In this document: piece by piece, positions 1-27,993 of the stretch
Position numbering within the stretch: the stretch's first letter is position 1
How the letters are laid out: each line of letters begins with the position of its first letter
Assembly (NCBI GenBank): GCA_016200145.1
Contig: JACQFH010000385.1
Span: forward strand, 1-32,592
Direction: 5' to 3'
DNA: 32,592 nt
From: Planctomycetia bacterium
GTDB lineage: Bacteria > Planctomycetota > Planctomycetia > Planctomycetales > Planctomycetaceae
Translations under genes and position numbers: made by a program
Notes under the pieces: generated by a model
What the model was told of the DNA's origin: nothing
Seen by the model: only the letters and a program-made list of their open reading frames with translations
The model's database searches: none

Positions 1-910
1 GGAAGACCACCAGCAGAACAAAACCAAAACCCGCGATGACCCCGGCTGCCGTCAAGACATGCGGTACGATGGTCATCCGCAGCCGCGCCATCGCCGATTC
101 GACGACTCCCAGCAGCACGGCCACGCCCAGCACCGCAGCCGTGAAAATCAGCCAATTCGCCCAGGCGCTGCTGAAATTGAGCGGGACGGCCAGACGCACC
201 ACGAGCGCCGCGAAGACGAATTGCTTGATTGCGGCAGCCAGTTGCAGCAGGGCCAGCATCGGCCCGCTGTGATCGAGAATAATCACCTCGTGGATCATCG
301 TGAGTTCCAGGTGCGTATTGGGATCGTCGAACGGAATCCGGCAGTTTTCGGCAAGCATCAGCAGGAACCAACTGGCGATGACGAGCAGCACCAGCACCCC
401 CGCCCCCCCCGATTCCGCAGACAGAGAACCGCCGAACAGCTCGACCATCCGCAAGGATCCGGAGACTTTGGCCAGGATCAGCAGGCAGAAGAACATCGTC
501 GGCTCGGCCAAACACGCGAACGAGACCTCGCGAGCGGCCCCCATGCCTTCAAACGACGAGCCCGTGTCGAGGGCTGAGAGCACCAGGAAGAACCGACCCA
601 GGGCGAGCACATAGGCGAACAGCAGCAGATCGCCGGTGAATGAGATCGGCGTGACGGGCTGTCCCATGGGAATGAGCATCGCGGCGAACACGGTCGTCAC
701 CAGGCTGGCAACGGGCCCGAATCGAAACAGGCATGTTGTGGTTGTGCTCACGACCGAGCCTTTGTGCAGCAGTCGCCACAGGTCGTAGTACGCCTGGAAC
801 AGGGGCGGCCCCTGTCGCCCGCCAAAGAATGCCTTCGTCCGGTTGATCATCCCCTGCAACAGCGGTGGGAAGGCGATCACCATCAGCACATGTGGCACAA
901 AGTGGATCAT
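1..910 (-). CDS. HyfC/HycD-like (NuoH-family) membrane subunit, partial at the window edge
   Basis: This is the membrane subunit that anchors the peripheral arm in group 4 hydrogenases and related complexes, the NuoH counterpart of complex I. I translated the minus strand from ATG 910-908; the frame stays open to base 1, giving at least 303 residues against about 315 for the family, so only the C-terminus is missing. Visible motifs are GRQGPPLFQAYYDLWRLL near residue 25 and, about residue 185, AENCRIPFDDPNTHLELTM followed by IHE, which is the HycD/HyfC form of the NuoH quinone-chamber loop. Multiple hydrophobic segments surround them. It starts 16 bp after the stop of the HyfB-like gene, so they are very likely cotranscribed. 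An 8-C run at 403-410 stays in frame. The catalytic subunits would lie to the left of the window, so it cannot be said whether the complex is a true hydrogenase or a hydrogenase-related (Ehr-type) complex. Confidence 0.85.
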   Translation of the reverse strand, partial: MIHFVPHVLMVIAFPPLLQGMINRTKAFFGGRQGPPLFQAYYDLWRLLHKGSVVSTTTTCLFRFGPVASLVTTVFAAMLIPMGQPVTPISFTGDLLLFAYVLALGRFFLVLSALDTGSSFEGMGAAREVSFACLAEPTMFFCLLILAKVSGSLRMVELFGGSLSAESGGAGVLVLLVIASWFLLMLAENCRIPFDDPNTHLELTMIHEVIILDHSGPMLALLQLAAAIKQFVFAALVVRLAVPLNFSSAWANWLIFTAAVLGVAVLLGVVESAMARLRMTIVPHVLTAAGVIAGFGFVLLVVF

Positions 911-926
911 TTCCGGGCGCACCGTC

Positions 927-2915
927 CTAACCCCAGAACAACAGCAGGAACACCAGAATTCCGAAGACGTACACGAGATAAATCTGAACGCTCCCCTGCT
1001 GCATCACGCGGATCCAGAACAGAGTTCGCGCAAGGAAACGGAACGCCGGCAGCACGACCCGATCGAGCACGATTTCCGGCACGTGACTTTCGAATCGGGC
1101 GGCATTGGGAAAAAGTTCGGTAATCCGGGGCCAGTGGACATTCGGCCGCAGCGCCCATCCGAACAGCGTCACCAGGATTTGTGCGAACGAAGAGGCCGTG
1201 TACTGCATCCGCGGCGTCGGGGCGGAATATCCGCAGCCCCATGTTTCGGTCCAATCAAATGGCCGGGTGCGAATGCGCCAACGCAGCAATCCTGCGGCCA
1301 GCGCCAGCGACGCGAGCAACGCGATCGCCGACGTGCTGATTTGTGAGACCGGCGCCAGTTGCCCCAGCATCCCGGCGCCGATCGGCGAACCGCCGGTCCA
1401 GACGGAAACCGCGTGATCGAGAACGGGGACCACCAGCGGCGGCGCCAGCCCGATTGCCGCACAACAGACTGACAGGACTCCCATCGGCGCCAGCATCGTC
1501 CAGCGCGATTCGTGGCCGGGATGCGGCTGCGATGCTCGCGCTGTCCCCAGAAACACGACGGCGAAGACTTTCACAAAGCAGGCGACGGCCAGCGCTCCCA
1601 TCAGGGCCAGCGCCGGAACGGCAAACGCCGCCGATGGATATTCCGGCCCGGTGCCCAGTCCCAGCGTTTGGAACAGACCGAGATAGATGAAGAATTCGCT
1701 GACGAATCCGTTGAGCGGGGGAAGCCCGCAAATGGCCGCCGCTCCGATGAGAAAGAACCCAGCCGTCCACGGCATCGATTTGGCCAGTCCTCCCAGGTGG
1801 TCGATCTCCCGCGTCTTTTGCGAGTGAATCACCGACCCCGCACTCAGAAACAACAGCGACTTGAACAGAGAGTGATTCCAGACGTGCAATAAACACCCGC
1901 TGAGGCCGAGAACGATCCACGTTTCTTGTCCGACTGAACGTCCCAGCACGGCCAGCGCCAGGCCAATCACGATGATTCCGATGTTCTCGATGCTGTGATA
2001 CGCCAGCAGCCGCTTCAGGTCGTGCTGACCAATGGCAAAGGCCACTCCCAACACGGCCGAAACGATGCCCACTGCCAGGAGCAGGCCGCCCCACCAGACC
2101 GGCGGGTCGGGCAAGAGGGACGTGATCCGCACCAAGCCATAGATGCCCATCTTGATCAGCACTCCCGACATCATCGCCGACACGTGGCTCGGCGCCATCG
2201 CGTGGGCGCTCGGCAGCCAGAAGTGCAGCGGCATGAATCCCGCCTTCAGCCCAAATCCCGCCAGCGCCAGCAGAAATATGACGTTGGCAGCGGCGGGAGA
2301 GATCGACCCGGCGGCCAGCGGCGCCAGGTCGTAACTCCCGGTCAGACCGTACAGGACGGCGAACATGGCAAACAGGCTCAGCGTCGCGGCATGGCTGGCG
2401 GCCAGATATTGCCAGCCCGCTTCGCGCACCTCCGGATCTTCATCTTCGGTCGCGACGAGCATGAATGCGGAGACCGCCATCGCTTCCCAGCCCAACAGAA
2501 ACGTTACCGAATTCCGCGCCAGCACCAGAACGGCCAGCGCGGCTGTCAGGAACCCATAAAACAACCGCAGCTTGCGACCGTTGTCGGGGTGCCCCGTCTG
2601 CTTCCAATAGTCCAGCCCGTAGACCGAGCCCAGAAGCGATATCAGAAAAATCGGGACGAGAAAGACCGCCGAAAGCGGATCGGCGGCCAGAACAATCTCA
2701 GCTTGCGGGATGGGCGACGGAAACCGCGCGATCTCTGCCGGCGGCGCAGTCAGGGCGAGTGCGGCGCCCCACAACCCGCAGATGCCGCCCGCCACTGCCA
2801 AAACCGTCGTCAGCAATTGTCCGGAACACGACTGCCGTCCAAACAGCAATCCCGGAACGGCGCTGAACCCCGTGAGCAGAATGCCGCTGAGCAATAGCCA
2901 CTCGTTGCCGATCAT
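927..2915 (-). CDS. HyfB-like antiporter subunit (hydrogenase-4 component B / NuoL-M family)
   Basis: This 662-residue polytopic membrane protein belongs to the proton-conducting antiporter family (Proton_antipo_M) and resembles hydrogenase-4 component B. The conserved glutamate lies in LLGWEAMAVSAFMLVATE (about residues 140-157). The broken-helix lysine follows in GLKAGFMPLHFWLPSAHAM, and further conserved residues are seen in LIKMGIYGL, HDLKRLLAYHSIENIGI and NGFVSEFFIY. The long C-terminal part ends in two more hydrophobic segments, as in HyfB. In the family these residues form the ion-translocation half-channels; the coupling ion cannot be read from sequence. The ATG at 2915 overlaps the stop of a possible 59-residue ORF upstream. 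The HyfC-like gene follows 16 bp after the stop, and the SulP gene lies upstream on the same strand. The N-terminus starts directly with a hydrophobic helix, which supports this start. Confidence 0.88.
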   Translation of the reverse strand: MIGNEWLLLSGILLTGFSAVPGLLFGRQSCSGQLLTTVLAVAGGICGLWGAALALTAPPAEIARFPSPIPQAEIVLAADPLSAVFLVPIFLISLLGSVYGLDYWKQTGHPDNGRKLRLFYGFLTAALAVLVLARNSVTFLLGWEAMAVSAFMLVATEDEDPEVREAGWQYLAASHAATLSLFAMFAVLYGLTGSYDLAPLAAGSISPAAANVIFLLALAGFGLKAGFMPLHFWLPSAHAMAPSHVSAMMSGVLIKMGIYGLVRITSLLPDPPVWWGGLLLAVGIVSAVLGVAFAIGQHDLKRLLAYHSIENIGIIVIGLALAVLGRSVGQETWIVLGLSGCLLHVWNHSLFKSLLFLSAGSVIHSQKTREIDHLGGLAKSMPWTAGFFLIGAAAICGLPPLNGFVSEFFIYLGLFQTLGLGTGPEYPSAAFAVPALALMGALAVACFVKVFAVVFLGTARASQPHPGHESRWTMLAPMGVLSVCCAAIGLAPPLVVPVLDHAVSVWTGGSPIGAGMLGQLAPVSQISTSAIALLASLALAAGLLRWRIRTRPFDWTETWGCGYSAPTPRMQYTASSFAQILVTLFGWALRPNVHWPRITELFPNAARFESHVPEIVLDRVVLPAFRFLARTLFWIRVMQQGSVQIYLVYVFGILVFLLLFWG

Positions 2916-3091
2916 GAGGCGCGCGCCGAGCCACTGAACAGACGGAAGTCACAGTCTCCACAGATGATGACGGCGCGATTGGCGAGAATCAACGTCAACG
3001 GGGATTCTGGCACGGCCCGCTTCAATTTGAGACGCACCGGCGCGTGCTTGGTCTGCACGCGGGGATCGAACAGGCCAAGCGCCGTTTCCAA
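2912..3091 (-). CDS. Possible small protein (about 59 aa) coupled to the HyfB-like gene
   Basis: The frame runs from TTG 3091-3089 to TGA 2914-2912, and the stop overlaps the ATG of the HyfB-like gene in an ATGA junction typical of translational coupling. The inferred peptide has a basic N-terminal half (KHAPVRLKLKRAV), a hydrophobic stretch (SPLTLILANRAVIICGDCDF) and a CGDC cysteine pair. About three quarters of its codons end in G or C, as in neighbouring genes. It sits in the 285-bp gap between the SulP and HyfB-like genes, where no longer gene fits. I do not recognise the peptide, the start is a weak TTG without a clear Shine-Dalgarno sequence, and it may be chance. Confidence 0.25.
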   Translation of the reverse strand: METALGLFDPRVQTKHAPVRLKLKRAVPESPLTLILANRAVIICGDCDFRLFSGSARAS

Positions 3092-3200
3092 GTCGCTCGT
3101 TCAATTGGGTCAGCCGGCCCGAAGCTTGTCTTTCAAGATCCGCACCCAGTGACTCACAACAGTCCTGATCCAGGCCGTTCGCAGTGCTGCATCAGTCGCA

Positions 3201-4859
3201 TCACGCGCTTGATTTCTTGGCCTTCTTACGAGACGCGAATTCATGACCGGACGAACTCGTGTGGTCATCCAGACCCGTGATGACCAGCGTGCGATTTCGC
3301 TCGGCAAACTCACGCTGCAGAATGTGCAGGCGTTCCATGACCGTGTGGTCAACGAGGCGGGTTTCGGACAAGTCGAGCTGAACCGTGGCCGTGTCGCTGG
3401 CATCTTCGATCTGCCGCCTCAGTCGAATCCAATTGCTGAACACGGCCGCGTCGTGGACCGACACGACAGTGTTGTCGCGGTCGTCGCGGTTGACCGTGAT
3501 CGGTGCCCGCAGCAGTGATCGCAGCGGCGCCCCGTTAAAGATATGCAGCAAGATCTTGACGGCGACCCCGATGGCAATCCCTTTCAGCAGGTCGGTCGCG
3601 AGAACTCCCAACAAAGTCACCAAAAAAATCGCCAATTGCTCTTTGCCGGTGTGATACACATGAATGAATTCTTGCGGAGACGCGAGGCGGAATCCGGTAT
3701 AGACCAGCATTGCGGCCAGGGCCGCCAGTGGAATCTCGTGAACCAGTCCAGGCACGAACGCCACAAACAGGAACAGAAACAGGCCGTGATACAAATTAGC
3801 GAGACGGGTTCGGGCGCCGTTGTCGATGTTGGCTTTGCTGCGCACGATCTCGGAGATCATCGGTAGCCCGCCGATCAGCGCGCTTCCCACGTTCGCCAAT
3901 CCCACGGCCAGAAGATCCCTGTCGAAGCTCGTCTTGCGTCGCCAGGGGTCGACCAGGTCGATGGCCTTGGCGCTCAGCAGCGATTCGAGGCTGCCAATCA
4001 GCGCAAACATCATCACCCATTTCCAGCCCGCTGCCGTTTGCAACCCGGAAAAGTCGGGAAGTGTGATTGCCGCGAAGATGTTCTTCGGCACGTCAACCAG
4101 GTAGTTGGGCCCCAACCCGAAGATATGCCCTCCGAACGAGTAGGTGTGCTCGTCCTCGAGATCGAACCACAACCCCAGCGGCACCGCAACCAGGATCACC
4201 CACATCGGAGCGGGAATGGCGCGGACCCAGCGTGACTTGAACATCGGCAGTCCGAACAGCAGCAACAGGCTCAACAGGCCAATCACGACGATTTCGGGGT
4301 TGCAGTTCATTATCGAATGGGGAATGTCGCGCAGCAGGAGCAGGGGTTCGCCGTGTTTCGACGGGGTGCCGACGACGGTATGAATCTGCTTGGAGATGAT
4401 GATGACGCCGATGGCGGCGAGCATTCCGTGCACGACCGACGTCGGGAAGAACTCGCTGAGCACGCCCGACCGCAACAGCGAAAAAACGATCTGCAGAACA
4501 CCGGCGGCGACTCCCACCCCCAGCGCCAGGCGATAAGCCTGGAAATCCGCGGCAGGATCCTCGCCCCCGGTAAAGCCGAATTCAGTGACGGCCCCCAGGG
4601 CGATGACGATCAGCCCCGCCGCCGGCCCCTTGATCGTCAGCTCCGAATTGCTGACCAGGCTGCAGACAACGCTCCCCACGATGGCCGTAAACACGCCGGC
4701 GATCGCCGGATATCCGCTCGCCAGAGAAATGCCCAGGCAGAGAGGCAGGGCGATCAGAAACACGAGAAAGCCGGAGTTCAGATCGGCCCGCCAGTTTTCC
4801 CGGAAACCGGCAATCCCAGTTTTGGGAACGTCAGCGCGGGTAGGCTTGTGATCGGTCAT
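3201..4859 (-). CDS. SulP-family anion (sulfate/bicarbonate) transporter with STAS domain
   Basis: A 552-residue inner-membrane transporter of the SulP/SLC26 family. Residues about 28-440 hold the membrane domain, with the first-half signature around residues 50-83 (SGYPAIAGVF, then NSELTIKGPAAGLIV). The conserved GSLESLLSAKAIDL is at 289-302 and GLPMISEIVRSKANIDNGAR at 331-350. A cytoplasmic STAS domain occupies about 455-532 (VQLDLSETRLVDHTVMERL), and the tail is Lys/Ser rich. Family members move sulfate, bicarbonate or other anions, often with Na+ or H+. Bicarbonate is inferred here only from the neighbouring dab genes. It lies on the same strand as the HyfB/HyfC-like genes 285 bp downstream. 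No good Shine-Dalgarno sequence precedes the ATG, which is common in planctomycetes. Confidence 0.9.
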   Translation of the reverse strand: MTDHKPTRADVPKTGIAGFRENWRADLNSGFLVFLIALPLCLGISLASGYPAIAGVFTAIVGSVVCSLVSNSELTIKGPAAGLIVIALGAVTEFGFTGGEDPAADFQAYRLALGVGVAAGVLQIVFSLLRSGVLSEFFPTSVVHGMLAAIGVIIISKQIHTVVGTPSKHGEPLLLLRDIPHSIMNCNPEIVVIGLLSLLLLFGLPMFKSRWVRAIPAPMWVILVAVPLGLWFDLEDEHTYSFGGHIFGLGPNYLVDVPKNIFAAITLPDFSGLQTAAGWKWVMMFALIGSLESLLSAKAIDLVDPWRRKTSFDRDLLAVGLANVGSALIGGLPMISEIVRSKANIDNGARTRLANLYHGLFLFLFVAFVPGLVHEIPLAALAAMLVYTGFRLASPQEFIHVYHTGKEQLAIFLVTLLGVLATDLLKGIAIGVAVKILLHIFNGAPLRSLLRAPITVNRDDRDNTVVSVHDAAVFSNWIRLRRQIEDASDTATVQLDLSETRLVDHTVMERLHILQREFAERNRTLVITGLDDHTSSSGHEFASRKKAKKSSA

Positions 4860-4961
4860 GGTGCAGCGCGAGCGCAGGAAAACCTAAGCCACCGCAGCGC
4901 ATTCCAGCACACGATCGACTGCGACGCCGGGGTTGGTCAGCGACCCATCGTACACAGATTG

Positions 4962-5003
4962 CATTAAGAAGAGAGCACCGTTTTTAGTTACATTTTCTTA
5001 ATG
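4962..5003. promoter_or_regulatory. Inverted repeat in the SulP 5' region, candidate operator
   Basis: CATTAAGAA (4962-4970) and TTCTTAATG (4995-5003) form perfect 9-bp arms around a 24-base, T-rich spacer. The element is notably AT-rich for this genome and lies 103-144 bases upstream of the SulP start. It could be a regulator site or a weak hairpin. No regulator gene is present in the window. Confidence 0.3.
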
Positions 5004-5029
5004 TGTGACGTGCGGCGTCCCACAATAGA

Positions 5030-5065
5030 ACAGGGGCGGGAACGCTGTCGCGAACCCGCCCCTGT
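5030..5065 (-). terminator. Hairpin terminator candidate downstream of the pilin-like gene
   Basis: ACAGGGGCGGG (5030-5040) pairs perfectly with CCCGCCCCTGT (5055-5065) across a 14-base loop. It lies 78 bases past the stop of the minus-strand pilin-like gene. On that strand the stem is followed by TCTATTGT, only moderately T-rich, so termination is likely but not certain. Confidence 0.55.
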
Positions 5066-5142
5066 CTTCCCAGGCCGTCGTACGATTGTTGTCGTCTGTT
5101 GATTGTTGAGGGTGCGCTCTCTGCCTGGAAAGTCACGCGAGA

Positions 5143-5475
5143 CTAGAGTCCTTTATCCGATTCGCGAAGAGGAGCGTCGCAACCGAGAGTGCACTCATTC
5201 TGGTCACACTGGTCGACGTGATCGGTGAAGTACGACCCAAAGGTAATGGCCTTGACGCTGCCGTCAAACTTCCTGCTCGTGAAGCCGGTGAACGAAAAGC
5301 TCTGGTTGAGCGAACCGATCGCCTCGCCGACGTCGTTGAGCTCGTTGACGACCGAAGACTGAATTTCGACCAGTCCCGTGATCAACCCGATCACACAGAT
5401 CGTGGCGACCAGCACCAGTTCCGAAGAGATAATAAATCCGGTTTCGTCATTCAGGAATTTCCGCAACATGATCAT
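5143..5475 (-). CDS. Short Flp/type IV pilin-like protein of planctomycete type
   Basis: A 110-residue protein, or 108 if translation starts at the second ATG (5469). It begins with a short basic leader (MLRKFLNDE), then TGFIISSELVLVATICVIGLITG, one hydrophobic helix with a glutamate near its start. That is the layout of class III (Flp-type) prepilins. The middle part (VVNELNDVGEAIGSLNQSF followed by FTGF) matches what I recall of a family of small planctomycete proteins. The tail is acidic and holds four cysteines (DQCDQNECTLGCD). AAAGG lies 4 bases before the first ATG and 10 before the second. No secretion ATPase, prepilin peptidase or other pilus gene is nearby, so it is an orphan here. 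Its role, whether surface fibre, pseudopilin or other, is open. A hairpin follows the gene. Confidence 0.7.
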   Translation of the reverse strand: MIMLRKFLNDETGFIISSELVLVATICVIGLITGLVEIQSSVVNELNDVGEAIGSLNQSFSFTGFTSRKFDGSVKAITFGSYFTDHVDQCDQNECTLGCDAPLRESDKGL

Positions 5476-6160
5476 TTCGCCTTTCGAGAGAGTGAGAGAG
5501 ATAGAGAGGTTTGTCGAAATCCAACCGCAACACGGCGGGCCTTCGCGGCTTCACACGAGTTACAACTCCACTGATTGTCACAGCCGGAGTTTGTTGAACG
5601 ACCCGAAGAGAAAGCACGAACCGTGCCACTGGGACGATCCGTGCAACCGGCAGAACCAGCGCGGTCCGCGCCGTCGTTGGTACCCGACTCTAACGCATGG
5701 ACGTTACAGGCGTTGCGCGGGGATCGGTCGCGGCGACCGGCGTGCACGGAAAATTCGCGCAGGCCGTGCAGCTCGCGCCGTCCCGTTAATCCGGCGATAC
5801 GGCCTGAGTGAACGCGCGCAATGATTTCTGCGCAACGGCCTGGCGCGTGCCAGGTCGACTGTGTCGCGCTGCGGGCAGGCAGTCCCGCATATTCCGTACC
5901 GTTGGTACGGCCGCTATTCCCGATAGAATCGTCGCAGCCGTCCTATCCGGGCCGGCGAAGGGGAGTTGCACTGATTCTGCGCATCGTAGCGCATTTGCGG
6001 GAAGCGCCGATTGGGGCGGAAATCTCGACGATGACGTTCGTATCGATTGGCGCGGCTTGACACGCGACCTTCGGCAGTCTGGACAACGGCATATTACAAA
6101 AAAGTAAGGTTTGCCGATCTTCCTTTACGCAGGGGGCCGGTATCTCATATACGAATCGTG
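5476..6160. other. 685-bp divergent intergenic region before dabA
   Basis: No convincing gene is present; the open frames here lack family-like sequence. The region must hold the promoters of both the pilin-like gene and dabA. A perfect hairpin or dyad, CCGTACC-GTT-GGTACGG, is at 5894-5910. A TTGACA hexamer is at 6057-6062, but no -10 element lies at the right distance. A purine-rich GAGAGAGTGAGAGAGATAGA tract runs from about 5486 on the plus strand. An in-frame TTG at 6047 could extend DabA by 38 residues but the sequence gained does not look like the family. Confidence 0.4.
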
Positions 6161-9100
6161 ATGATCGAGTCATTTATGGTCGACGTCCGGCAGGAGGCGC
6201 AGCGACACGACGTCGATAAAGGCTGTCGCGACGCGCTGCACGACTTGGAAGAGGCAATCGAGCATGCCTCGCATCTGCTGCCGGCCCAGGGGCCGATTAC
6301 GGTCTTCATCCACCACAACACCCTGCACGCGTTCGAGCACCTGCCGTTCGAAGAGGCAGTCAAAGAAGCGGCGCATGTTTTTGGCTGTCACCCTTACCTG
6401 CAGGAAGACCAGTACCGCGACGCGCTCCGCCGCGGACGCATCCGGTTTTCGCACCTGAAGCAGGTCCTCGAGCGGGACCTGGCGGAACGCGCGGGCGAGC
6501 TGATTCCGTGTTTCGGTACGCGGCTCGATCTGCAACTGGCGATGCTGCACGACCCCGTACGGACCGGCCCGTCGGCTGAACTCGTGTGGCATGTCGCCGA
6601 GGCCGACGCCCTGCGCCGCGTCCGTCCGGAAGTCTCTGCCGCCGTACGCGCCGCGCTGATTTCCGAGACCCGCCGCTGGGTCATGCGCGACCTGCGGCGA
6701 GGAACCGAGCCAGAAAGCTCGAATTCGACTTTACACCGTTCCGCCGATGTGTCCCAGGGCCTCTCGGATCTGCTCGACCGGTTCGAATCGGCTATAGAAA
6801 ACTGGAGCGACGACGACTGGGAAGGTTTTACGCTCCAGGCGCTGTGGCGGGTTTGTTGCGATGGCGTTCGCAGCCTGCCGGCCTTTGGAAGCGGCCCGGC
6901 GCTTCCGGTCCGGCACCGCGACCTGTTGCTGGAGGCCACCGGCGCCGATCCGGATCTGCTCGTTAACGATCTTTTGATCCGTTTCGTAGGTGCATTTCTC
7001 GATCAGGGGCTGGCCTCCCGGGAAATGCCGCTTCATGACGAAGGATTTTTTCGCGCATTCTGCACGCTGTACAGCCAGCCGCTGGGACCTCCCGTCCGTT
7101 GGCTGCGCGGCCTGTCGCGCGAGCTCAGACGCCTGCTCGACCTTCAGCTTTCGCCGCTGGAATCGATCTATGAAAGCATTCAGGCCCTGGGCGTGCCCCG
7201 CGACGACTGGCAAAAGCTCGTTTCGTCCACGTTACTTTCGCTTCGCGGCTGGGGAGGCATGGTGCGCCAGATCGAGCTGCGCGGGGATCGGTCGGTGCGG
7301 CCGGTTCCTACAGGCAGCCTTGTCGAGTTCCTGGCGATTCGCCTGCTTCTCGACCGGTTCGCAGCAGAGCATATTGCCCGCTCGGAATTGGAATTCACCG
7401 AAACTCTCGCGGAATTGCGCGGACGGCTGCTCACGCAGCTCGCTCGACCATGGCAGCCGTCCGCCGAACAGCGGGCATTCCTCGTTTTCCAGCTGGCGCA
7501 GGTCGCCGGCCTGTCGCCCGACGTGCTGTACCGGCTGTCCGATCAGGAATGGGCGACGATCGTCCGCGAGATCGAGGCATTCACGGGCCTCGAGCGGCGG
7601 CGGATCTTTCATCTGGCATACGAGCGGCGGTTTACCGAACAGGCGCTCGATGCCATCGCGATCCATTCGCAGCAGCATTGGGGCCGGCCCGCCAACGCGG
7701 ACTTTCAGGTCTCGTGCTGCCTGGACGAACGCGAAGAATCGTTCCGGCGGCACCTGGAGGAGATCGCTCCGCGGGTTGAAACGTTTGGAGTTGCCGGGTT
7801 TTATAGCGTCGCGATCTATTATCGCGGAGCGGCAGACGCCCATTTCACGCCGCTTTGCCCCATTGTGCTGAAGCCCGGGCACTGGGTGACGGAGGAGGTC
7901 GGCGAAAGCCACGCCGAGGTGCACCACCGGCGCGCCAGAACACGCCGCGCGCTCGGCTCGGCTTCGCACGTGTTGCACCGCGGGAGCCGCACGATCGCTT
8001 CGGGAACGCTCCTGTCGGGGCTCGTCGGCGTGCTGGCCACGTTTCCGCTGGTCGCGCGAATTCTGTTTCCGCGCGTCGCCGCGCGAATTCGCCGGCGCCT
8101 GGCTCACATTGTGCAACCACCCTCCAACACGCGGCTGCAGATCGAACGGCGGGAAGCGAGCTGCGGCCCGGAGAACGGCCATGTCGGATATTCCGTCGAC
8201 GAAATGACGGGCGCGGCCGAGCGCCTGCTGCGTGACATGGGTTTCACGTCGGGCTTTTCGCGCCTGGTCGTTCTGCTGGGGCACGGTTCCGAGAGCCTCA
8301 ATAATCCGTACAACTCGGCGTACAACTGCGGCGCGTGCGGGGGCTCGGCCGGAGGGCCCAACGCGCGGGCCATGGCGCAGATCCTGAACGATCCGCGCGT
8401 CCGCGACTTGCTGGCGCAGCGCGGAATTGTGCTGTCCTCGGACACCGTGTTTGTCGGAGGGCTGCACAATACCTGCAATGATTCCGTCGTCTACTTCGAC
8501 CGCGGTCAGATTCCGCAGACGCATCAGCAGGAATTTCACGACGCCCGCCAGGCGATCGAGGCCGCCTGCGAACGAAATGCGCACGAGCGCTGCCGGCGGT
8601 TCATGTCGGCGCCGCTGACTCTGTCATTCGGTGAGGCGCGGCGGCATGTCGAAGAACGCGCAGAGGACCTGGCCCAGACCCGCCCCGAATTGGGCCATGC
8701 GACGAACGCCATCACGATCGTCGGCCGGCGTGAATGGACGCGGGGGCTGTTCCTCGACCGCAGGGCCTTTCTGACCTCTTACGATCCCACTCAGGACGAC
8801 GCCGAGAGCTCGATCCTGACCCGGATTCTGCAAGCCGTGTTTCCCGTGTGTGCCGGCATCAACCTGGAGTATTATTTTTCGCGCGTGGACAATTACGGCT
8901 ATGGATCGGGAACAAAGCTGCCGCACAACCTCGCGTCGCTGCTGGGCGTCATGGACGGCGCAGCCAGCGATCTGCGAACGGGGCTGCCGTGGCAGATGGT
9001 GGAGATTCACGAGCCGGTTCGCGCTGTGTTCGTCATCGAGACGACCTCCGCCGCCATGAACGGCATCATGGATCGCAACGAGGGCATCGCCCGGCTGTGC

Positions 9101-9313
9101 CGCAACGGCTGGGTTCAGCTTGCGTTGCTGCACCCCCAGACGCGACAAGTGAGCGTGTTTCACGACGGCGCGTTCGAACCCTATGAGCCGCAGGCGGCGA
9201 CGCTACCCGGGGCCAAGTCGTCGGTCGACTGGTATCGCGGGTGGCGGGACCACCTGGAATTCTGCGAGATCACGGGCGATTCGGAGGCGGCGCGACCACA
9301 CGACAGAACGTGA
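6161..9313 (+). CDS. dabA: DabA, zinc-dependent inorganic-carbon pump subunit (DUF2309)
   Basis: This 1050-residue protein is the soluble, carbonic-anhydrase-like subunit of the DAB (DABs accumulate bicarbonate) complex, which is thought to hydrate CO2 vectorially at the cytoplasmic membrane, driven by the cation gradient through DabB. The family zinc ligands are visible: Cys520 and Asp522 in VSCCLDERE, and His708 and Cys723 in LLGHGSESLNNPYNSAYNCG. The 15-residue His-Cys spacing and the two-residue Cys-Asp spacing match my recollection of the characterised DabA. The N-terminal HHNTLHAFEHLPFEEAV and late NCGACGGSAGGPNARA blocks are typical. I chose ATG 6161 (or 6176) because the 38 residues gained from TTG 6047 are unlike the family; no Shine-Dalgarno sequence decides it. 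The antiporter gene follows after 30 bp. The length is at the long end for DabA, which usually has about 800-1000 residues. Confidence 0.92.
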   Translation: MIESFMVDVRQEAQRHDVDKGCRDALHDLEEAIEHASHLLPAQGPITVFIHHNTLHAFEHLPFEEAVKEAAHVFGCHPYLQEDQYRDALRRGRIRFSHLKQVLERDLAERAGELIPCFGTRLDLQLAMLHDPVRTGPSAELVWHVAEADALRRVRPEVSAAVRAALISETRRWVMRDLRRGTEPESSNSTLHRSADVSQGLSDLLDRFESAIENWSDDDWEGFTLQALWRVCCDGVRSLPAFGSGPALPVRHRDLLLEATGADPDLLVNDLLIRFVGAFLDQGLASREMPLHDEGFFRAFCTLYSQPLGPPVRWLRGLSRELRRLLDLQLSPLESIYESIQALGVPRDDWQKLVSSTLLSLRGWGGMVRQIELRGDRSVRPVPTGSLVEFLAIRLLLDRFAAEHIARSELEFTETLAELRGRLLTQLARPWQPSAEQRAFLVFQLAQVAGLSPDVLYRLSDQEWATIVREIEAFTGLERRRIFHLAYERRFTEQALDAIAIHSQQHWGRPANADFQVSCCLDEREESFRRHLEEIAPRVETFGVAGFYSVAIYYRGAADAHFTPLCPIVLKPGHWVTEEVGESHAEVHHRRARTRRALGSASHVLHRGSRTIASGTLLSGLVGVLATFPLVARILFPRVAARIRRRLAHIVQPPSNTRLQIERREASCGPENGHVGYSVDEMTGAAERLLRDMGFTSGFSRLVVLLGHGSESLNNPYNSAYNCGACGGSAGGPNARAMAQILNDPRVRDLLAQRGIVLSSDTVFVGGLHNTCNDSVVYFDRGQIPQTHQQEFHDARQAIEAACERNAHERCRRFMSAPLTLSFGEARRHVEERAEDLAQTRPELGHATNAITIVGRREWTRGLFLDRRAFLTSYDPTQDDAESSILTRILQAVFPVCAGINLEYYFSRVDNYGYGSGTKLPHNLASLLGVMDGAASDLRTGLPWQMVEIHEPVRAVFVIETTSAAMNGIMDRNEGIARLCRNGWVQLALLHPQTRQVSVFHDGAFEPYEPQAATLPGAKSSVDWYRGWRDHLEFCEITGDSEAARPHDRT

Positions 9314-9343
9314 CTGCAGGCGATGCCTGCTGCCGGATCAATT

Positions 9344-10720
9344 ATGCCGAACGTCGAACAGATTGTGCAGTCGCTGGGGCTGGTCGTGGTGGCCGCGCCG
9401 CTCCTGCTGACGGTCATCCTGGGAATCTCGTCGCTGGTCGGTCGCCCCCTGTCGGAAGAAAAGACGACTCTGCTGGGACATGGCACGATCGTCTGCGGGC
9501 TGCTGGCTTCAATCGCCATCCTGGGGATCATGTTGGTCGTCGGCAAACGTCACATCCCCATCCCCCTGGGGGACTGGGTGGTGATTCCGCACCATTACCA
9601 TTTCTCAATCAAGATCGTCTTCGATCGGCTCTCGGTTCCGTTTGTCATTCTGTCGTATGTGCTGTCGGGAACGATCGGCGCATTCGCCAGCCAGTACGTG
9701 CATCGTGAGCCGGGATTCAACCGGTTCTTCTCGCTGTACTCGATCTTCGTGCTGGGGATGGTCGTGACGGCGCTGGCCGGAACGATCGAAACGCTGTTCA
9801 CCGGCTGGGAGCTCGTGGGCCTGTCTTCGACGCTGCTCGTGGCGTTTTACCAGGAGCGGCCGGCGCCGCCGCGCAACGCGCTCTGGATCTGGGCCGTGTA
9901 CCGGGTCTCGGACGCGGCATTGCTGCTGGCGGCCGTCGTCATGCACCACATGCGCGGCGAAGGGGACTTCGACCGGCTCCTGGGGAGCGGCATCTGGCCC
10001 GATGAAGTCTCGAAACTCGAGCCGCGACAGGCCATGTTCGTGGGAGCGCTGCTGCTCATCGCGGTTGCGGGCAAATCGGCCCTGGTGCCGTTCTCGGGCT
10101 GGCTGCCGCGCGCCATGGAAGGGCCGACTCCCTCGAGCGCCGTGTTCTACGGGGCGCTCTCGGTCCACCTCGGAGCATTTCTGCTGTTGAGAATCAGTCC
10201 CCTGCTGGCTCTTTCGCCCGGAATTTCGACGGCCGTGATTGTGATCGGGTTGCTCACGGCCGTCGTCGCGCACCTGGCGGGCAGCGTGCAGACCGACATC
10301 AAAACGGCGCTTTCATTCGCGTCGCTGGTGCAGGTCGGCATTATCGTGACCGAGATCGGCCTGGGCTGGCACTACATCGCACTGATTCATCTGCTCGGCC
10401 ATGCCTGTCTGCGCACGCTGCAATTCGTCAGGGCGCCGACTTTGCTGCAAGACTATCGGCGGCTGGAAGACGCTCTTGGCGAGCGACTGCCGCGCGGGCG
10501 CGCCGGGATCGAACAGTATCGCACCTGGCTCTATCGCTGGTCGCTGGAGCGCGGCTACCTGGACGCGTTTTTGAGCGAGTACTTCGTGGCTCCCTTCGTA
10601 CGCGTCTTCCGCTGGTGCGATCGGATGGAGCGGCGCTGGACCGACTTCTTGTCTCGCGGGCCATCTCGCGACTCCGACCGGCCCGCGGGGCAGAGCGGAG
10701 GCATCGACGACCTGACATGA
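9344..10720 (+). CDS. dabB: DabB-like antiporter subunit (NuoL family)
   Basis: A 458-residue polytopic membrane protein of the Proton_antipo_M family, the membrane partner expected for DabA. With the start at 9344, Glu156 in [17 protein letters not shown] and Lys244 in [20 protein letters not shown] correspond to the conserved charged pair of NuoL-type channels. The [11 protein letters not shown] motif is the NuoL/DabB form. [20 protein letters not shown] lies in the C-terminal third, followed by a soluble tail that is rich in charged residues. ATG 9344 has GGA six bases upstream; ATG 9323 would add seven residues but its AGG lies only three bases away. The gene starts 30 bp after dabA and overlaps the next gene by four bases (ATGA). 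It is shorter than NuoL, which is normal for DabB. Confidence 0.88.
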
Positions 10721-12159
10721 ATCTGTTGCAACTCCCCTGGATCGAGCTGGCGATCTTGTTTGCGATGGTCGGATCGGCGATCGTCGCCCGCCTGCGCGAC
10801 CCAAATCACGCCTATCAGTGGGGCCTGGCCTTCATGGGCGCGTCGTTCATCTCCACGCTGTGGGCGTGGCAGGCGTACTATCTGGGAATTCCTGCGGAAG
10901 ACCTGGCCCGCTTCAGTCTTCAGCCCGGGCTGTTCGGCCGGCGACTCTTTGCGCTCGACGAGCTCAGTGCGCCTCTTGTGCCGAGCGTCGCGCTGCTGCA
11001 CTTTCTGACGGCCCTGGCGACTGCACGGACGAAAATGCGGCGTTACTCATTTTCGTGGTCGCTGGCGGCCGAGGCCATCCGCCTGGCGACCTTCAGTTGC
11101 GAGGAACCGTGGGTGCTCGTGGGCCTGCTCGCGAGCTTGACCGTCCCCCCGTACGTCGAGCTGGTTAATCGCGGTTGCCCGACTCGCGTCTACACGCTGC
11201 ACATGGCGCTGTTTGTCGCCCTGCTGGTCGCCGGGTGGGCGATCGTCGACACGGCTCCGGGCGTCTCTTCGGTTCGCGCCCAGGTGGGAGTCATTCTGCT
11301 GATGGCCGCGATTCTCGTCCGTTGTGGAACGATTCCCGTCCACTGCTGGATAACCGACTGGTTTGAACACGCCTCGTTTGGAATTGCCATTCTGTATGTC
11401 GTTCCGTTGAGCGGCGTATATGCCGCAGTGCGGCTAGTCCTGCCGATCGCCCCCGATTGGGTTCTGCGCACCATCGCGCTGATCTCATTGGCCACGGCCG
11501 TGTATGCAGCCGGCATGGCCACGGTGCAGCGCGACGCGCGGCGATTTTATGCCTATCTGTTTCTCAGCCACGCGTCGCTCGTGCTCGTCGGGCTCGAAAT
11601 GCGGACGGCCCTGTCGCTGACGGCTTCGCTGTGCCTGTGGTTTTCGGTGATTCTCTCGCTGGGTGGCTTCGGGCTGGCGCTGCGCGCGCTGGAATCGCGA
11701 TTCGGGCGGATGTCGCTTGTCAAATATCAGGGACTCTATGGTCATTCGCCGACGCTGGCGGTGTGCTTCATGCTTACGGGCCTGGCCTCGGTCGGGTTTC
11801 CGGCAACCGTCGGATTCATTTCGACTGAGCTCCTGGTCGACAGCGCGGCTGAAGTCAGCGCGCTGGTCTGCGTGGCGGTGGTGGCGGCGGCCGCCATCAA
11901 CGGGATTGCCGTCGTGCGTGCCTACCTGTTGCTGTTCACGGGCGCCAAGCACGTCTCCTCCGTCTCCCTGGAAATCAGTCCGCGAGAGAGATTTGCCGTG
12001 CTGACTCTGGCCGCGCTGATTCTGGGTGGAGGCATTTTCCCGCAGCCCGGCGTGACTTCACGATACCTGGCGGCTGAACAGGCCCTCAGCCGCCGCGAGT
12101 CGTCGCGTGACGTGCGTGCCGGCGATCCGCAAACAGACGAGGTCGAGCACAAGCAATAG
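10717..12159 (+). CDS. Second antiporter subunit of the dab operon (NuoM-like)
   Basis: A 480-residue membrane protein with many hydrophobic helices, more NuoM- than NuoL-like. [19 protein letters not shown] is the counterpart of a conserved NuoM segment, and Glu129/Glu130 lie at the position of the conserved helix glutamate. The broken-helix segment reads [20 protein letters not shown], with Arg202 where NuoL/M proteins normally have lysine. The start ATG overlaps the stop of dabB as ATGA (10717-10720), so translation is coupled and the two products are probably made in similar amounts. A longer frame begins at 10615 but lies inside dabB. Well-studied DAB systems have a single DabB, so this may be a third subunit of the complex; that is inference from operon structure. 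The tail after residue 450 is hydrophilic. Confidence 0.82.
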
Positions 12160-15593: not shown

Positions 15594-16502
15594 CTACTTC
15601 TTCCCCGAGGCGTGGGGGTGGGCCTTCTGGTAGGTGTCGCGAAGCCGTTCGGTGCTGACGTGCGTGTAGATTTGCGTCGTTGTCAGGCTCTTGTGGCCGA
15701 GCAGCTCCTGGACGCTGCGCAGGTCGGCGCCGCCGTCGAGCAGGTGCGTGGCAAAGCTGTGCCGCAGCGTGTGCGGGGTCGTCAACTTGTCGAGCCCGAT
15801 TTCACGAATGTGCTTTTCCAGGAGCCGGCCGACGCTGCGGGTGGTCAACCGCCGGCCGCGCTTGTTAAGAAACATCGCGCCCTGCTGGATGGCGGGGGCA
15901 GTCGGGTCGGGCTCGCTAACTTCGAGCCAGCGGCCCAGCGCCTGGGCCGCATAGCTTCCGACGGGCGTCACGCGCTCTTTGCGTCCCTTGCCGATCACCC
16001 GCAGGATACCAGCATCGCGGTCCCAGTTCATGACGTTCAGCGACGCGAGCTCAGCAACGCGCAGGCCGGCTGAATACAGCGTCTCGAGGATCGCTCGGTC
16101 GCGCAGCCCCGCCGGCGTGTTCGCGGGGGGTGCTTCGAGCAGCCGGGCGACCTGCTCGGTCGACAGAAAGTGCGGCAGCCGCCGCCCGGCGCGTGGCGTT
16201 CGCAGCGCTTTGGCCGGGTTTGTCTCGGCGAGCTGTTCGCGACAGCAGTACCGAAAAAAACTTCTCAGGCACGCCAGGCGCCTCGCCATCGTGCTGCGCG
16301 AATACTGGCACTCGTGCATGTAGGCGACATAGCCACGCAAATCAGCGACCGAGACCGCGGCGACACCGGGCACTCCGCCCGCGCGCTCGCTAAAGTATTC
16401 CAGAATGCTGGCCAGGTCTTCGCCGTAGGACTTGATCGTCAGCGCAGAACAATTTCGCTCGATCTTCAGGTAATTCAGGAAGCCGGCGATGGCGGATTGC
16501 AT
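15594..16502 (-). CDS. xerC: Tyrosine recombinase XerC/XerD family
   Basis: This 302-residue site-specific recombinase is of the Xer type, which resolves chromosome dimers at dif with a partner Xer protein. Numbering from ATG 16502, the N-terminal SAM-like core-binding domain covers about 1-85 and the catalytic domain about 105-295. All catalytic residues are present: Arg148 (SAGLRVAEL), Lys172 ([10 protein letters not shown]), His244 and Arg247 ([16 protein letters not shown]), His270 ([11 protein letters not shown]) and the nucleophile Tyr279 (IYTHVS). A TTG at 16526 would add eight residues; the ATG is preferred. Length and gene order (no transposon or phage genes around) favour a housekeeping Xer over an integrase. 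XerC and XerD cannot be separated safely from sequence alone. A 79-residue gene ends 45 bp upstream on the same strand. Confidence 0.9.
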
Positions 16503-16547
16503 GGCGCGATTCGGCAGGACCTGCAAACCGACGGCGACGCACTCTGC

Positions 16548-16787
16548 CTACCGCGCGGCGCGCGGGGTGCGAGTCGGCGCTTCGTGCGGGGCAGGCACTT
16601 CCTGGGTCAACTTGCGGACCTTCTGGCTGAGGACGGCGGCGTCGTACCAGGTGAAGCTCAGCTCGGGATTGCCGGCGAACCGGCCCAGCGTCTGCAAGAG
16701 CGCCGGGGCGCTTTCGTTGTCGTACAGGAAAATGTAGCGCTCGGCATCTTTGACGAGCGCCACGACATTGATTCCGCGTTCCATCAT
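16548..16787 (-). CDS. Small conserved protein (79 aa) upstream of xerC
   Basis: The protein starts MMERGINVVALVKDAERYIF and includes LQTLGRFAGNPELSFTWYDA, ending in a Pro/Arg/Thr-rich tail. GGGAG lies four bases before ATG 16787 and seven before ATG 16784, which decides between these and a longer frame starting at 16859. I recall similar proteins in planctomycetes but no assigned function. There is no signal peptide or membrane helix, so it is probably cytoplasmic. The alternating hydrophobic pattern of the first 30 residues suggests a small alpha/beta fold. It lies on the same strand between the lipoprotein gene (85 bp upstream) and xerC (45 bp downstream), so it may be cotranscribed with either. 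Confidence 0.7.
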   Translation of the reverse strand: MMERGINVVALVKDAERYIFLYDNESAPALLQTLGRFAGNPELSFTWYDAAVLSQKVRKLTQEVPAPHEAPTRTPRAAR

Positions 16788-16872
16788 GGAACTCCCGAAT
16801 CGCGGCCGGAAAAGTCGGTTCCGAACGCCGCGTCTTTGTGATTTATCGACCGTCCGCACGAGGGGAGTTCGG

Positions 16873-17892
16873 TTATTTTCCGAAGAGGAATACTTTTTCG
16901 GTTGTCAGGGTTCCGCCGTGCAATTGGAGCATTTCGAGCACGAGGACATGGGCGGTGAATCGCAGAAAATCGTCGCTGCGGTGGAGATACGCCTCCCAAC
17001 CGACGGAGCGCATGTCGCCCCGCCGTACGTAGTAACACTTCAGGCGATGGATCAGCTCGGGCGAGGCCCCGTCGAAAAATCGCGTGTACGACATGACCGG
17101 TCGAAGAATGTCCGGCTTGTCAGGCGAGCAGAACGCCCCTTGCAGAGATTTCGCCTTGGTTGTCGCACCCTGTTTGACGTCGCCGAGACTCGGATCCGGG
17201 TCGGGGGGCCAGATCGGGGCCGGGGGCGTCGCGGCGCTTCCCGCGTTCTTACCGCCCGTTGACTGCGTCAACCTGATCTGAGGCGCGACCGGGAATGGCT
17301 GAAATCGGTCCGACAGTTCATCGCCGTCGGGTGACTGGCCGCGCACGACCGGTGCCTGCGGAGTGGTTGCCCGCGGAGCTGCCCGAGTTCCACCCCCGAT
17401 CGAGTCGGTATCGGATCGAGACTCATCGCCGGTGGCAAAAATCCATCCCCGCGACGAATACCAGTCGATCTGCACGCCAAGTTGCGGTGGATAGTACGGA
17501 ACGTATTCTGTCACCGCTCCGACGACGACGGCATCGACGTCGAGAATGCTTGCCAGCTTGATGACGTCATCGGGATTCTCGATGACCAGCCCGTTCTCAC
17601 GAATCGCCTGCTCCACCACGCCGATCGGCAGCACTTCGTAGTTCGAGGTCTTCTGCAGTTCGGCGTAGTAGGCGATCGCGAATCGCCGTCCGTCGACGCT
17701 GGGTTCGGCACTCAGATTGATAAATGGCGCAACGGCGACCTTCGTCATTCCGGGGATCGGATTGCTGACGTTCACCGGGACGACGCTGCAGCCAGAAGCG
17801 CTCAGCGCCAGCATGAACAGCGGCAGGGCCAGCAGCAGTCCCGCGCGCGCGCTCCTGGCGACAGTCAATAATCGAAAGCCCGGCCGACCCAT
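16873..17892 (-). CDS. Lipoprotein with a CsgG-like N-terminal domain
   Basis: This 339-residue protein has a lipoprotein signal: basic start, hydrophobic core and ALSASGC with the modified cysteine at residue 35. Residues about 45-135 (TKVAVAPFINLS, RRFAIAYYAELQKTSNYEVL, DVIKLASILDVDAVVVGAVT) look like the fold shared by CsgG and other outer-membrane-associated lipoproteins. Residues about 150-245 are Pro/Ser/Gly-rich and probably disordered. The C-terminal block (SYTRFFDGASPELIHRLKCY and VLVLEMLQLHGG) looks conserved. ATG 17892 is chosen over GTG 17937, which would put 15 extra residues before the signal peptide. It lies 102 bp downstream of the polytopic membrane gene on the same strand. 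The role is unknown; envelope assembly is a guess. Confidence 0.72.
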   Translation of the reverse strand: MGRPGFRLLTVARSARAGLLLALPLFMLALSASGCSVVPVNVSNPIPGMTKVAVAPFINLSAEPSVDGRRFAIAYYAELQKTSNYEVLPIGVVEQAIRENGLVIENPDDVIKLASILDVDAVVVGAVTEYVPYYPPQLGVQIDWYSSRGWIFATGDESRSDTDSIGGGTRAAPRATTPQAPVVRGQSPDGDELSDRFQPFPVAPQIRLTQSTGGKNAGSAATPPAPIWPPDPDPSLGDVKQGATTKAKSLQGAFCSPDKPDILRPVMSYTRFFDGASPELIHRLKCYYVRRGDMRSVGWEAYLHRSDDFLRFTAHVLVLEMLQLHGGTLTTEKVFLFGK

Positions 17893-17994
17893 GGACGAAC
17901 CGACCCCCTGCGAATTAGGAAGATTCCACCAATTCACTCATCGGCAGAATTTCGCAGGTTGCTGCAATCGAAATAACCGGCAGAGTCGGAAAAA

Positions 17995-19521
17995 TCAGAA
18001 AAGTCCGAATGGCGCTGGCAGCAGGAAGGCGTGGTGCTCGAACAACACGAGTTTGCCGTGCTGTCCGATGAACTGCGTGAAAAACAGCAGAAACACGTAC
18101 GTGGCCAGGAACGGCAGGAGCACGAGTCTCGTCAGCCAGCGCAATCCGAAAAAGGCACGCCGCTCTCTCGTCAGTGCTCGGTGATAGGCCCATCCGGTAA
18201 TCACTTTGACCGGATAGATGGTCACGATGAATACAATGGTTTCCATCCACAGGGCATCACTGGGAGGCAGCCTGACCTTGAACAGGTACATGGGCAGCGC
18301 CATTGTTAGCGTCACCAGCATGATGACCATCCACGAGAACGGGGCGTTCTTGAAGAGTTTCCGCACCGTCCCCAATTCAAACATCGCGCCGAACCGATTT
18401 TCAGCCGAGTAATGCGCCTGCAGGAACGGAACCCAGCTCAACACGAGCATCAGCAGCGCTCCGCCGAACAGCGTCATCAGGATCGGCCCCCCTTCGGTTT
18501 TCCTGGCAGCCGCAAATATCGCGGTCGGGACCAACAGCCAGATCAGCGCGCCGACGAAGCCCTTGAACCCCAGCAGAAAATGGTGCTTGAGGCGCAGCGA
18601 CGTGACGAACTCGCTCACAGTCGTCGAAGCGTGATTCCAATACGCCGCGGACAGAAGCGATCGCAGATAGGCCAGGTACTCCTTCGCGTGTCTGTACAGC
18701 GCGACGGCCCAGCCGCGAACGAGGGCGTTGAGCCACTCGAGCGTGCGTCCGCGATGCACTGCAAATGCGATGAGTACCGCCAGCAGCAGGCCAGCCAGCA
18801 CGTACCGGGCGGTCGCCAGCAGCAGCAACCCACCGATCGCCACCACCAGCGGAAGCGCCAGCGGCCACATGAAGGCCCACAAGCTTCCGCCGTGCGCCAG
18901 CGCCAGACACAGGTGTACCGTCACCAGCACTGCCAGTGCCGTTACCACGATGTGCAGACTCACGTCGGCAAACGACCCCGGATCGATCAATCGGGCATCG
19001 GCGGCGGCATTCGACAGCAGCCTGAGCGGAATGATCCACGCCCAGATTCCCAGTGCGATCGAGCCCAGACGCGGGGCCTGGCGCAGCAGCGGAAAGGCGT
19101 CTCTCAACTTTCCGCTGCGGGCCATGCGCCCTTCGACTTCCAGCAGGTAGCCGAGCGCGAGTAAATTCACGATGGGAATTGCGGCGATCAACGCCAGCAG
19201 CAGGATCAGGCTGGCAATACCGAACAGCGACTGAATCAACCAGGCAACAAAGCCCAGAGCGGCGACGACCGTTCGGCGGATCAGGCCGTGTTTCGGGCGA
19301 GAATCGGGCGCGACTCCATCGAGATAGTCGGTGATCTCGACCGGGTCCGTCGCGGTACCGGCGGGCGCAAAACCAGGCTCAAGGAACTGGGTCACCTCGA
19401 GCGCCGTTCGTGCGGTGCTCTCGACATGCAGCGGCGAAACGCCGTAGTCGATCATGTCGGCGGCGGGCGCGATTCGCCGCGCGGGCCCTGCGTCCCCCGA
19501 AATTTGGTCGCCCTCCGCCAT
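17995..19521 (-). CDS. Large polytopic membrane protein of unknown function (DUF4013-like)
   Basis: This 508-residue protein has a soluble N-terminal stretch of about 80 residues and then some ten hydrophobic segments. LALIAAIPIVNLLALGYLLE, followed by VEGRMARSGKLRDAFPLLR, resembles DUF4013 membrane proteins; the rest (LKHHFLLGFKGFVGALIWLL, SWVPFLQAHYSAENRFGAMF) looks like planctomycete membrane proteins without assigned roles. Possible starts include ATG 19521 (chosen), 19533 and 19542; none has a clear Shine-Dalgarno sequence. There is no recognisable enzyme motif. It is divergent from the DUF1549 gene, with 134 bp between the two starts, and heads the run membrane protein, lipoprotein, 79-residue protein, xerC on the minus strand. 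Confidence 0.7.
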   Translation of the reverse strand: MAEGDQISGDAGPARRIAPAADMIDYGVSPLHVESTARTALEVTQFLEPGFAPAGTATDPVEITDYLDGVAPDSRPKHGLIRRTVVAALGFVAWLIQSLFGIASLILLLALIAAIPIVNLLALGYLLEVEGRMARSGKLRDAFPLLRQAPRLGSIALGIWAWIIPLRLLSNAAADARLIDPGSFADVSLHIVVTALAVLVTVHLCLALAHGGSLWAFMWPLALPLVVAIGGLLLLATARYVLAGLLLAVLIAFAVHRGRTLEWLNALVRGWAVALYRHAKEYLAYLRSLLSAAYWNHASTTVSEFVTSLRLKHHFLLGFKGFVGALIWLLVPTAIFAAARKTEGGPILMTLFGGALLMLVLSWVPFLQAHYSAENRFGAMFELGTVRKLFKNAPFSWMVIMLVTLTMALPMYLFKVRLPPSDALWMETIVFIVTIYPVKVITGWAYHRALTRERRAFFGLRWLTRLVLLPFLATYVFLLFFTQFIGQHGKLVLFEHHAFLLPAPFGLF

Positions 19522-19655
19522 ACGTGATATCATACCAGACATACCCGCCGGCCATGCCGCACGTTTCGACAAAAAATGCTGAAACAATCCTCGCTTGCAG
19601 GGGGTAGAATGATTAACGATTTCAAGGAAACCGTCCCGCCGACGAATAACTGAAT

Positions 19656-21323: not shown

Positions 21324-21475
21324 AAAAAAATGCGGAATTCGGAATGCGGAATTGTTGGTGAGCCGGGGGAACGGGCACCGATTCGAATAGAATTGGTCGC
21401 CCCCGGGTACATGCGTCGGTACTTGACGACATGACGCGCGGAAAGATCTGTTCCTTTAACGATCGATTCAATTCC
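21324..21475. repeat. Short direct repeat in the DUF1549-DUF1501 spacer
   Basis: Two copies of ATGCGGAATT (21330-21339 and 21344-21353) are spaced by CGGA, directly after the stop codon and an A8 run. CCGGGGG (21363-21369) can pair with CCCCCGG (21400-21406). Related GAATGCGGA text occurs after glyS near 25048. No gene is seen in this spacer. Confidence 0.45.
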
Positions 21476-22759: not shown

Positions 22760-22791
22760 GCGCGCGGCAGACCGCCCCTTATGATCGCGCC

Positions 22792-23544: not shown

Positions 23545-23585
23545 TTGTGTCTGAACGTGTAACACGAATAAAGGAAGCAAACACC

Positions 23586-25037: not shown

Positions 25038-25065
25038 AGGAAATGCCGAATGCGGACGGTAATCC

Positions 25066-25327: not shown

Positions 25328-25341
25328 GAGCGCCTTCTCAA

Positions 25342-26166: not shown

Positions 26167-26281
26167 GAAACGCGAAAAGGGGTGGCCGGGGCTGGACCGA
26201 AGGGAAGCCCCGGTGGTGAAAAACAGAAGAAACGGTGGCGCTGGATGACGTTAGCCTCCCGGCAACGCCCGCCCCCACTCA

Positions 26282-26412: not shown

Positions 26413-26470
26413 GCGAACGTCTCGGTGCACGACATCGATCGATGGACGCTCCGCTACTCACCCTCGAACG

Positions 26471-27844: not shown

Positions 27845-27993
27845 CGTGGTCACACTCCTGCAGGTCAGGTATAGCCTAGCTTGGCCTGCAGGACGTGGCA
27901 ACGGGTGATTCTGGAGGGCGCTGCGGAAGAAGAAAGTCGACAGCAGAGAGTAGACCAAAGGAGATGGAGCAGGCAGCGAATTGATCAGTGGAT

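Follow-up and report, generated by a model that had tools for sequence, protein, structure and literature searches.

Why genes for CO2 hydration and anion transport should lie beside membrane subunits of a hydrogenase-like complex is the question raised by the first 12,159 nucleotides of a contig from a Planctomycetia bacterium (assembly GCA_016200145.1; contig JACQFH010000385.1, here C673). The window, i.e., the whole stretch that was analysed, covers 32,592 nucleotides of this contig from its first base. The original prediction, made from the sequence, had placed dabA, two antiporter subunit genes, a sulP gene and HyfB/HyfC-like genes together here, and each of these identities was upheld by Pfam and NCBIfam. 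The explanation we favour, to which we give about an even chance, is that of an island for inorganic-carbon uptake that has recruited an ion pump driven by redox reactions, in which an Ehr (hydrogenase-related) complex would sustain the gradient used by a DAB-type complex and the SulP transporter.

The island is organised as two divergent units. On the plus strand lies a closely packed DabA-DabB-DabC trio, while SulP, HyfB and HyfC follow one another in that order on the minus strand, the last being cut by the contig edge. Both predicted antiporter subunits are present, to which we can add that DabB is a shortened NuoL and the second subunit (DabC) a separate NuoM/NdhD-like protein. Leftward extension towards the remainder of the Hyf-like genes is impossible, because the window begins at the first base of C673. 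Another contig of the same genome (C572; the assembly comprises 8.28 Mb in 742 contigs) opens with the C-terminal 72 residues of a HyfG-like large subunit, and next comes a HyfH-HyfI fusion with two [4Fe-4S] motifs and a NuoB-like domain. Since the rest of the assembly yielded no separate HyfF, a single Hyf operon is probably split between C673 and C572. Of the subunit set, B and C are seen in the window and the G tail and HI on C572, with the full HyfB-C-E-F-G-HI set seen in relatives.

The HyfG tail of this genome ends SDFPLCNKSFNLSYCGHDL and contains no C-terminal nickel CxxC. Both CxxC motifs are absent in 20/20 non-anammox HyfG relatives aligned, rows from other phyla included, with GDTS-like residues replacing the N-terminal motif in every non-anammox row. 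The absence of the nickel cysteines, a point that the original prediction had proposed to check, is therefore direct for the C-terminal pair and judged through relatives for the N-terminal pair. Because both the tail and the non-anammox relatives lack nickel CxxC motifs, the Hyf-like module is, judged by sequence, an Ehr complex and not a hydrogenase. The genes checked beyond HyfHI on C572 (Pfam: DUF4440, TPR and FGE-sulfatase domains, among others) include none for a formate dehydrogenase, nor is the gene after HyfI in a relative (G160; labels beginning with G and L are our own) a formate dehydrogenase by Pfam, while other loci were judged by listing of open reading frames (ORFs) only. With neither nickel CxxC nor formate dehydrogenase in these places, the locus does not correspond to the complete formate hydrogenlyase-type locus that had been considered as an alternative. 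In the HyfG alignment, H165, H194, G218, H260 and D512 are invariant across 23 rows. An Ehr HyfG profile compared by eye with 2fug_4 matched the complex-I residue D139 and left the quinone residues H38 and Y87 unmatched.

Large subunits of the anammox family (the family with hydrazine synthase, although the gene itself was undetected in G500) form a separate case, in that HyfG (L262, L254, L255) retains all four nickel cysteines (RICGVC, CYSC). By its sequence motifs, this subunit looks like that of a genuine group-4 type hydrogenase.

The DabABC trio is predicted to form a variant DAB-type complex for CO2 hydration and dissolved inorganic carbon uptake. PF10070 matches the window DabA over its full length, and residues C558, D560, R562, H746 and C761 align with C351, D353, R355, H524 and C539 of DabA2; the zinc ligands and the Asp-Arg dyad are invariant in 33 aligned sequences. 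The membrane finger is longer than in DAB2 and has no equivalent of Glu444, with no acidic residue seen in 32 of 35 long DabAs, that of the window among them. Glu444 is essential in DAB2, where its mutation abolishes activity (PMC13144422), and is a feature of the DAB2 mechanism, not a family cut-off. DabB retains E163, R194, D197, K251, K327, H356 and H360, has the complex-I ion pairs, among them a glutamate at the position of Ile151 in DAB2, and matches NuoL up to about residue 378. The predicted model of DabC (pLDDT 88.5) adopts the fold of NuoM, MrpD and the NdhD3 of NDH-1MS, with a TM-score of 0.82 to the NdhD3-type chain 6tjv_D. It is plausible that DabC supplies the proton route which in DAB2 is given by Glu444 and by the helices missing from DabB. 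A Foldseek search with the DabA model gave no significant match, which is uninformative since 9rd0 may be absent from the library (limit April 2026; its paper, May 2026).

The closest DabA to that of the window (71–72% identity) comes from a genome of the same genus that yielded no HyfB. Long DabAs (~1030–1130 a.a.) occur with DabB and DabC, short ones (~740–900 a.a.) with one DabB of ~530 a.a. where read, and both kinds coexist in some planctomycete genomes (e.g., G001, G024, G034). One genome (G010, L048:6352-8952) encodes an 866-a.a. protein whose N-terminal half resembles NuoL and in which PF00361 matches a second stretch; this protein looks like a natural DabB-DabC fusion and adjoins a 933-a.a. 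DabA retaining the VESLG glutamate.

The SulP protein probably carries bicarbonate. Its best solved relative is 6ki1 (7.9e-21), which we take to be BicA, and its score against the NCBIfam BicA equivalog is 127.6 bits (cut-off 880). The residues of the BicA sodium site appear changed in it when the alignment is read by eye. No RuBisCO (PF00016) was detected in this genome (G000; assembly ~96% complete) or in G015, G063 and G160. A RuBisCO-linked CO2-concentrating mechanism is unsupported for this genome, and, given no RuBisCO was found, the bicarbonate probably feeds heterotrophic carboxylations rather than the Calvin cycle.

The adjacency of dabA, sulP and hyf genes, flagged in the original prediction for a survey of planctomycetes, recurs in other genomes and so is not limited to this one. 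In G160, DabA-DabB-DabC-HyfB-C-E-F-G-I form an unbroken series in one direction, and in G063 (assembled from three contigs) a helix-turn-helix/EIIA gene precedes DabA-DabB-DabC and then HyfB. The order HyfG-HyfI-DabA-DabB-DabC-SulP is seen in G015 and L101, where HyfB-C-E-F are on another contig and divergent from this run, respectively, and L100 contains HyfG-HyfI-DabA. Three anammox-family genomes (G366, G515, G500) show DabA-DabB-HyfB-C-E-F-G-I, the operon with the nickel-CxxC HyfG there coming after DabA-DabB. SulP also adjoins other Ehr lineages (G042, G158, G161, L110) and lies ~4.5 kb from Ehr/Hyf in the anammox-family genome G352, while SbtA adjoins still others in G055 and G097 (PF05982 confirmed). 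The trio itself was noted at ~30 planctomycete loci and is joined by an adjacent SulP gene in roughly eight; Ehr is scarcer, with 12 genomes (this one counted) among the 170 from the order. In the open literature (subscription papers being outside coverage), we found no earlier report linking Ehr/Hyf with DabA, SulP, SbtA or anammox.

In a divergent Ehr lineage, SbtA-family genes (PF05982) lie upstream of HyfB and share its strand (L093:5141-6295, L094:11256-12410). Of 80 Ehr loci drawn from many phyla, 55 are accompanied by a helix-turn-helix/PTS-EIIA fusion gene, a candidate regulator that also occurs upstream of DabA in G063 (L207:595-1269).

This linkage is not random. DabA lies within 10 kb of an Ehr/Hyf operon in 7 of the 17 planctomycete genomes with both, where 0.08 would be expected under random gene placement; with the anammox family counted once, 5 of 11 are linked, for which the same simple null gives a P of about 2e-10. 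These counts include G000 though the window was picked for this feature, and the excess does not depend on it; fragmentation of the assemblies may lead to linkage being undercounted. Blind clustering of the neighbours of 70 planctomycete Ehr/Hyf units placed DabA in 9 and SulP in 9, the more frequent neighbours being Hyf genes, response regulators (10) and one cluster in 26 units, taken to be mainly the helix-turn-helix/EIIA gene. Both the HyfB+C+HI tree and the DabA tree, obtained by a short search, scatter the linked members, with supported branches forcing at least 6 and at least 5 changes, respectively. The approximately unbiased test rejected a tree in which all DAB-linked Ehr form one clade (p 8e-9), a value driven in large part by the deep anammox branch and subject to the short tree search and to the choice of the group by linkage.

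How the two units might work together can be outlined as follows. In the three-subunit DAB-type complex, DabA would hydrate CO2 at its zinc site, coupled to ion flow via DabB and DabC. The opposite unit would combine probable bicarbonate uptake by SulP with an Ehr complex (HyfB-C-E-F-G-HI) lacking nickel ligands. The most likely electron source for Ehr is a low-potential carrier, for example ferredoxin, entering via the fused two-[4Fe-4S]/NuoB subunit (both this donor and the acceptor are presumed). Ehr would pump ions out of the cell and thereby help to maintain the gradient on which DAB and SulP draw, with both divergent units possibly under shared control. The original view of an inorganic-carbon island with a complex-I-type module adjoining it thus stands, while the joint working of the two continues to be argued from genomics.

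Several observations weigh against such a tie. Across 392 planctomycete genomes, the presence of Ehr and that of DabA show no association (odds ratio 1.06, p 0.84), and no carbon gene is in view at 44 of 48 Ehr loci in the phylum sample or at 75 of 80 in a wider scan of many phyla. HyfE, HyfF and most of HyfG were not found elsewhere in this assembly. Moreover, the proton-motive force is delocalised, so energetic coupling by itself needs no gene linkage. A dependence of Ehr on DAB was dropped given the uncorrelated presence of the two modules, which indicates that Ehr is independent of DAB; together with the mostly unlinked loci, this points to a DAB-independent role for Ehr, which has been placed beside carbon uptake repeatedly.

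Unlinked loci and unenriched co-occurrence are also what would be expected were the neighbourhood a by-product of genome rearrangement in few lineages. We consider chance of this kind barely credible against the excess over random placement noted above, the differing arrangements, and the scatter of linked cases in both trees. Nearly as improbable in our judgement is that a new site in place of nickel lets Ehr itself convert or bind CO2, bicarbonate or formate, with the transporters feeding it. The nickel-site replacements are partly strongly conserved (the five invariant HyfG residues above) and the two quinone residues of complex I are unmatched, as this proposal would have it; however, neither formate dehydrogenase nor another CO2 enzyme was seen among the neighbouring genes checked, and the DAB-linked large subunits of the anammox family retain their four nickel cysteines. 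Because of the latter, the trait shared by the linked cases is the complex-I-like membrane redox module and not the active-site chemistry, and energetic plus regulatory coupling is therefore favoured.

Regulation could in principle account for the linkage without energetic coupling, if the two modules respond to one shared condition (low CO2, low energy or pH stress) and stay together for regulatory convenience. The helix-turn-helix/EIIA gene, which precedes many Ehr operons and immediately precedes DabA in G063, fits this account, as does the adjacency of Ehr to both SulP and SbtA, which are unrelated transporters. This gene is, however, missing from the island in the window, and shared regulation by itself leaves the repeated choice of a pump-type complex unexplained; we regard it as rather unlikely to be the whole explanation. 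A closer union than the one we favour is conceivable, in which Ehr and DabABC form one physical redox-driven CO2-hydrating complex, a convergent counterpart of the cyanobacterial NDH-1MS; DabA would then sit on DabB/DabC at the tip of a complex-I-like arm, in roles like those of CupA on NdhF3/NdhD3. The same-strand runs in G160 and the three anammox-family genomes, the NdhD3-type fold of DabC, and the lateral ion pairs retained in DabB but partly lost in DAB2 speak for it. Against it, the trio stands without Ehr in view at ~25 loci, so that DAB can do without Ehr; the order of the genes is variable, and SulP lies between or beside the modules in several linked genomes. A single particle is thus an unlikely arrangement, albeit one to be taken seriously.

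The features of the island are collected in Table 1. The DabA ORF is open from a TTG at 6047, with the ATG at 6161 being the likelier start. A scan of the region between the divergent units for promoters and terminators yielded nothing above shuffles. Between SulP and DabA lies a 110-a.a. ORF (5143–5475, minus strand) with no Pfam match, two relatives of which (48–50% identity) are found beyond the SulP gene in G015 (L067). A glycosyltransferase gene comes after DabC on the opposite strand. The genes checked further downstream (15594–28033) encode a tyrosine recombinase, a member of the 2-phosphosulpholactate phosphatase family, a class II tRNA synthetase and a DUF1501 protein, and look unrelated to the island.

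Table 1. Features of the inorganic-carbon island in the window.
Feature	Coordinates	Strand	Evidence and remarks
HyfC/NuoH-like membrane subunit of Ehr complex	2..922	-	PF00146 9.6e-33; truncated by contig edge; HyfB 5 bp before, same strand
HyfB-like antiporter subunit of Ehr complex	927..2915	-	NF005086 (hydrogenase 4 subunit B, NCBIfam) 574 bits, below its cut-off of 667 bits; PF00361 3e-54
SulP-family anion transporter, probable bicarbonate carrier	3201..4859	-	PF00916 3e-60; weak STAS match
Long-type DabA	6161..9313	+	PF10070 1.5e-241; DabA2 9rd0_A 5.7e-61
DabA zinc-site span, C558 to C761 (ORF numbering from 6047)	7718..8329	+	Alignment to DabA2
DabA membrane finger, a.a. 644–676, without Glu444 equivalent	7976..8074	+	Comparison of 35 long DabAs
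DabB, shortened NuoL-like subunit	9323..10720	+	PF00361, PF00662; 9rd0_B 9.4e-25
DabC, NuoM/NdhD-like third subunit	10717..12159	+	PF00361; ATG overlaps DabB stop by 4 bp

The repeated placement of Ehr beside CO2 and bicarbonate transporters offers a concrete, testable hypothesis for one lineage of a widespread group of respiratory-type complexes. The boldest form of it, which we hold as a doubtful though attractive prospect, is that planctomycetes evolved redox-driven CO2 pumps in which a nickel-free Ehr is coupled to a three-subunit DAB, possibly in one particle, as a non-photosynthetic, convergent counterpart of NDH-1MS. If true, this Ehr-DAB pump would be the first concrete function for this Ehr lineage. 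Should the modules act together, evolution would have joined complex-I-type parts to CO2-hydrating subunits on more than one occasion. As the DAB here lacks the essential glutamate of DAB2 and has an extra antiporter subunit, it tests the generality of the published coupling mechanism.

Among known systems, the Ehr complexes described previously (PMC6349859, PMC10284858) have the HyfB, C, E, F, G and HI set, of which B, C, a G tail and HI are seen in this genome, and share with it a large subunit without nickel-binding CxxC. Their function is given there as unknown or hypothetical, with formate-dehydrogenase partners proposed, whereas here Ehr adjoins inorganic-carbon transporters. Hydrogenase 4 and formate hydrogenlyase of E. 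coli (Hyf, Hyc) are built from subunits of the Ehr types (HyfB, C, E, F, G, H/I). The complex described here differs from them in lacking nickel ligands and in having HyfH fused to HyfI, and the genes checked beside it include no formate dehydrogenase. The window SulP shares the fold of the BicA/SulP bicarbonate transporters while scoring far under the BicA family cut-off. DAB2 (DAC) of Halothiobacillus neapolitanus (PMC13144422; PDB 9rd0) likewise has a beta-carbonic-anhydrase-like zinc site beside a NuoL-like DabB; the window DAB differs in its longer DabA, the missing Glu444, a shortened DabB with Glu for Ile151, and the added DabC. In H. neapolitanus, DAB1 is likewise a three-subunit complex, whose third member has been described as a small transmembrane protein. 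Finally, like the cyanobacterial NDH-1MS (CupA, NdhF3, NdhD3), this island encodes a subunit for CO2 hydration together with membrane subunits of NuoL and NuoM type and a redox module resembling complex I, whereas DabA comes from a different protein family and has a zinc site of its own, and the island is known here from genes and single-chain models.

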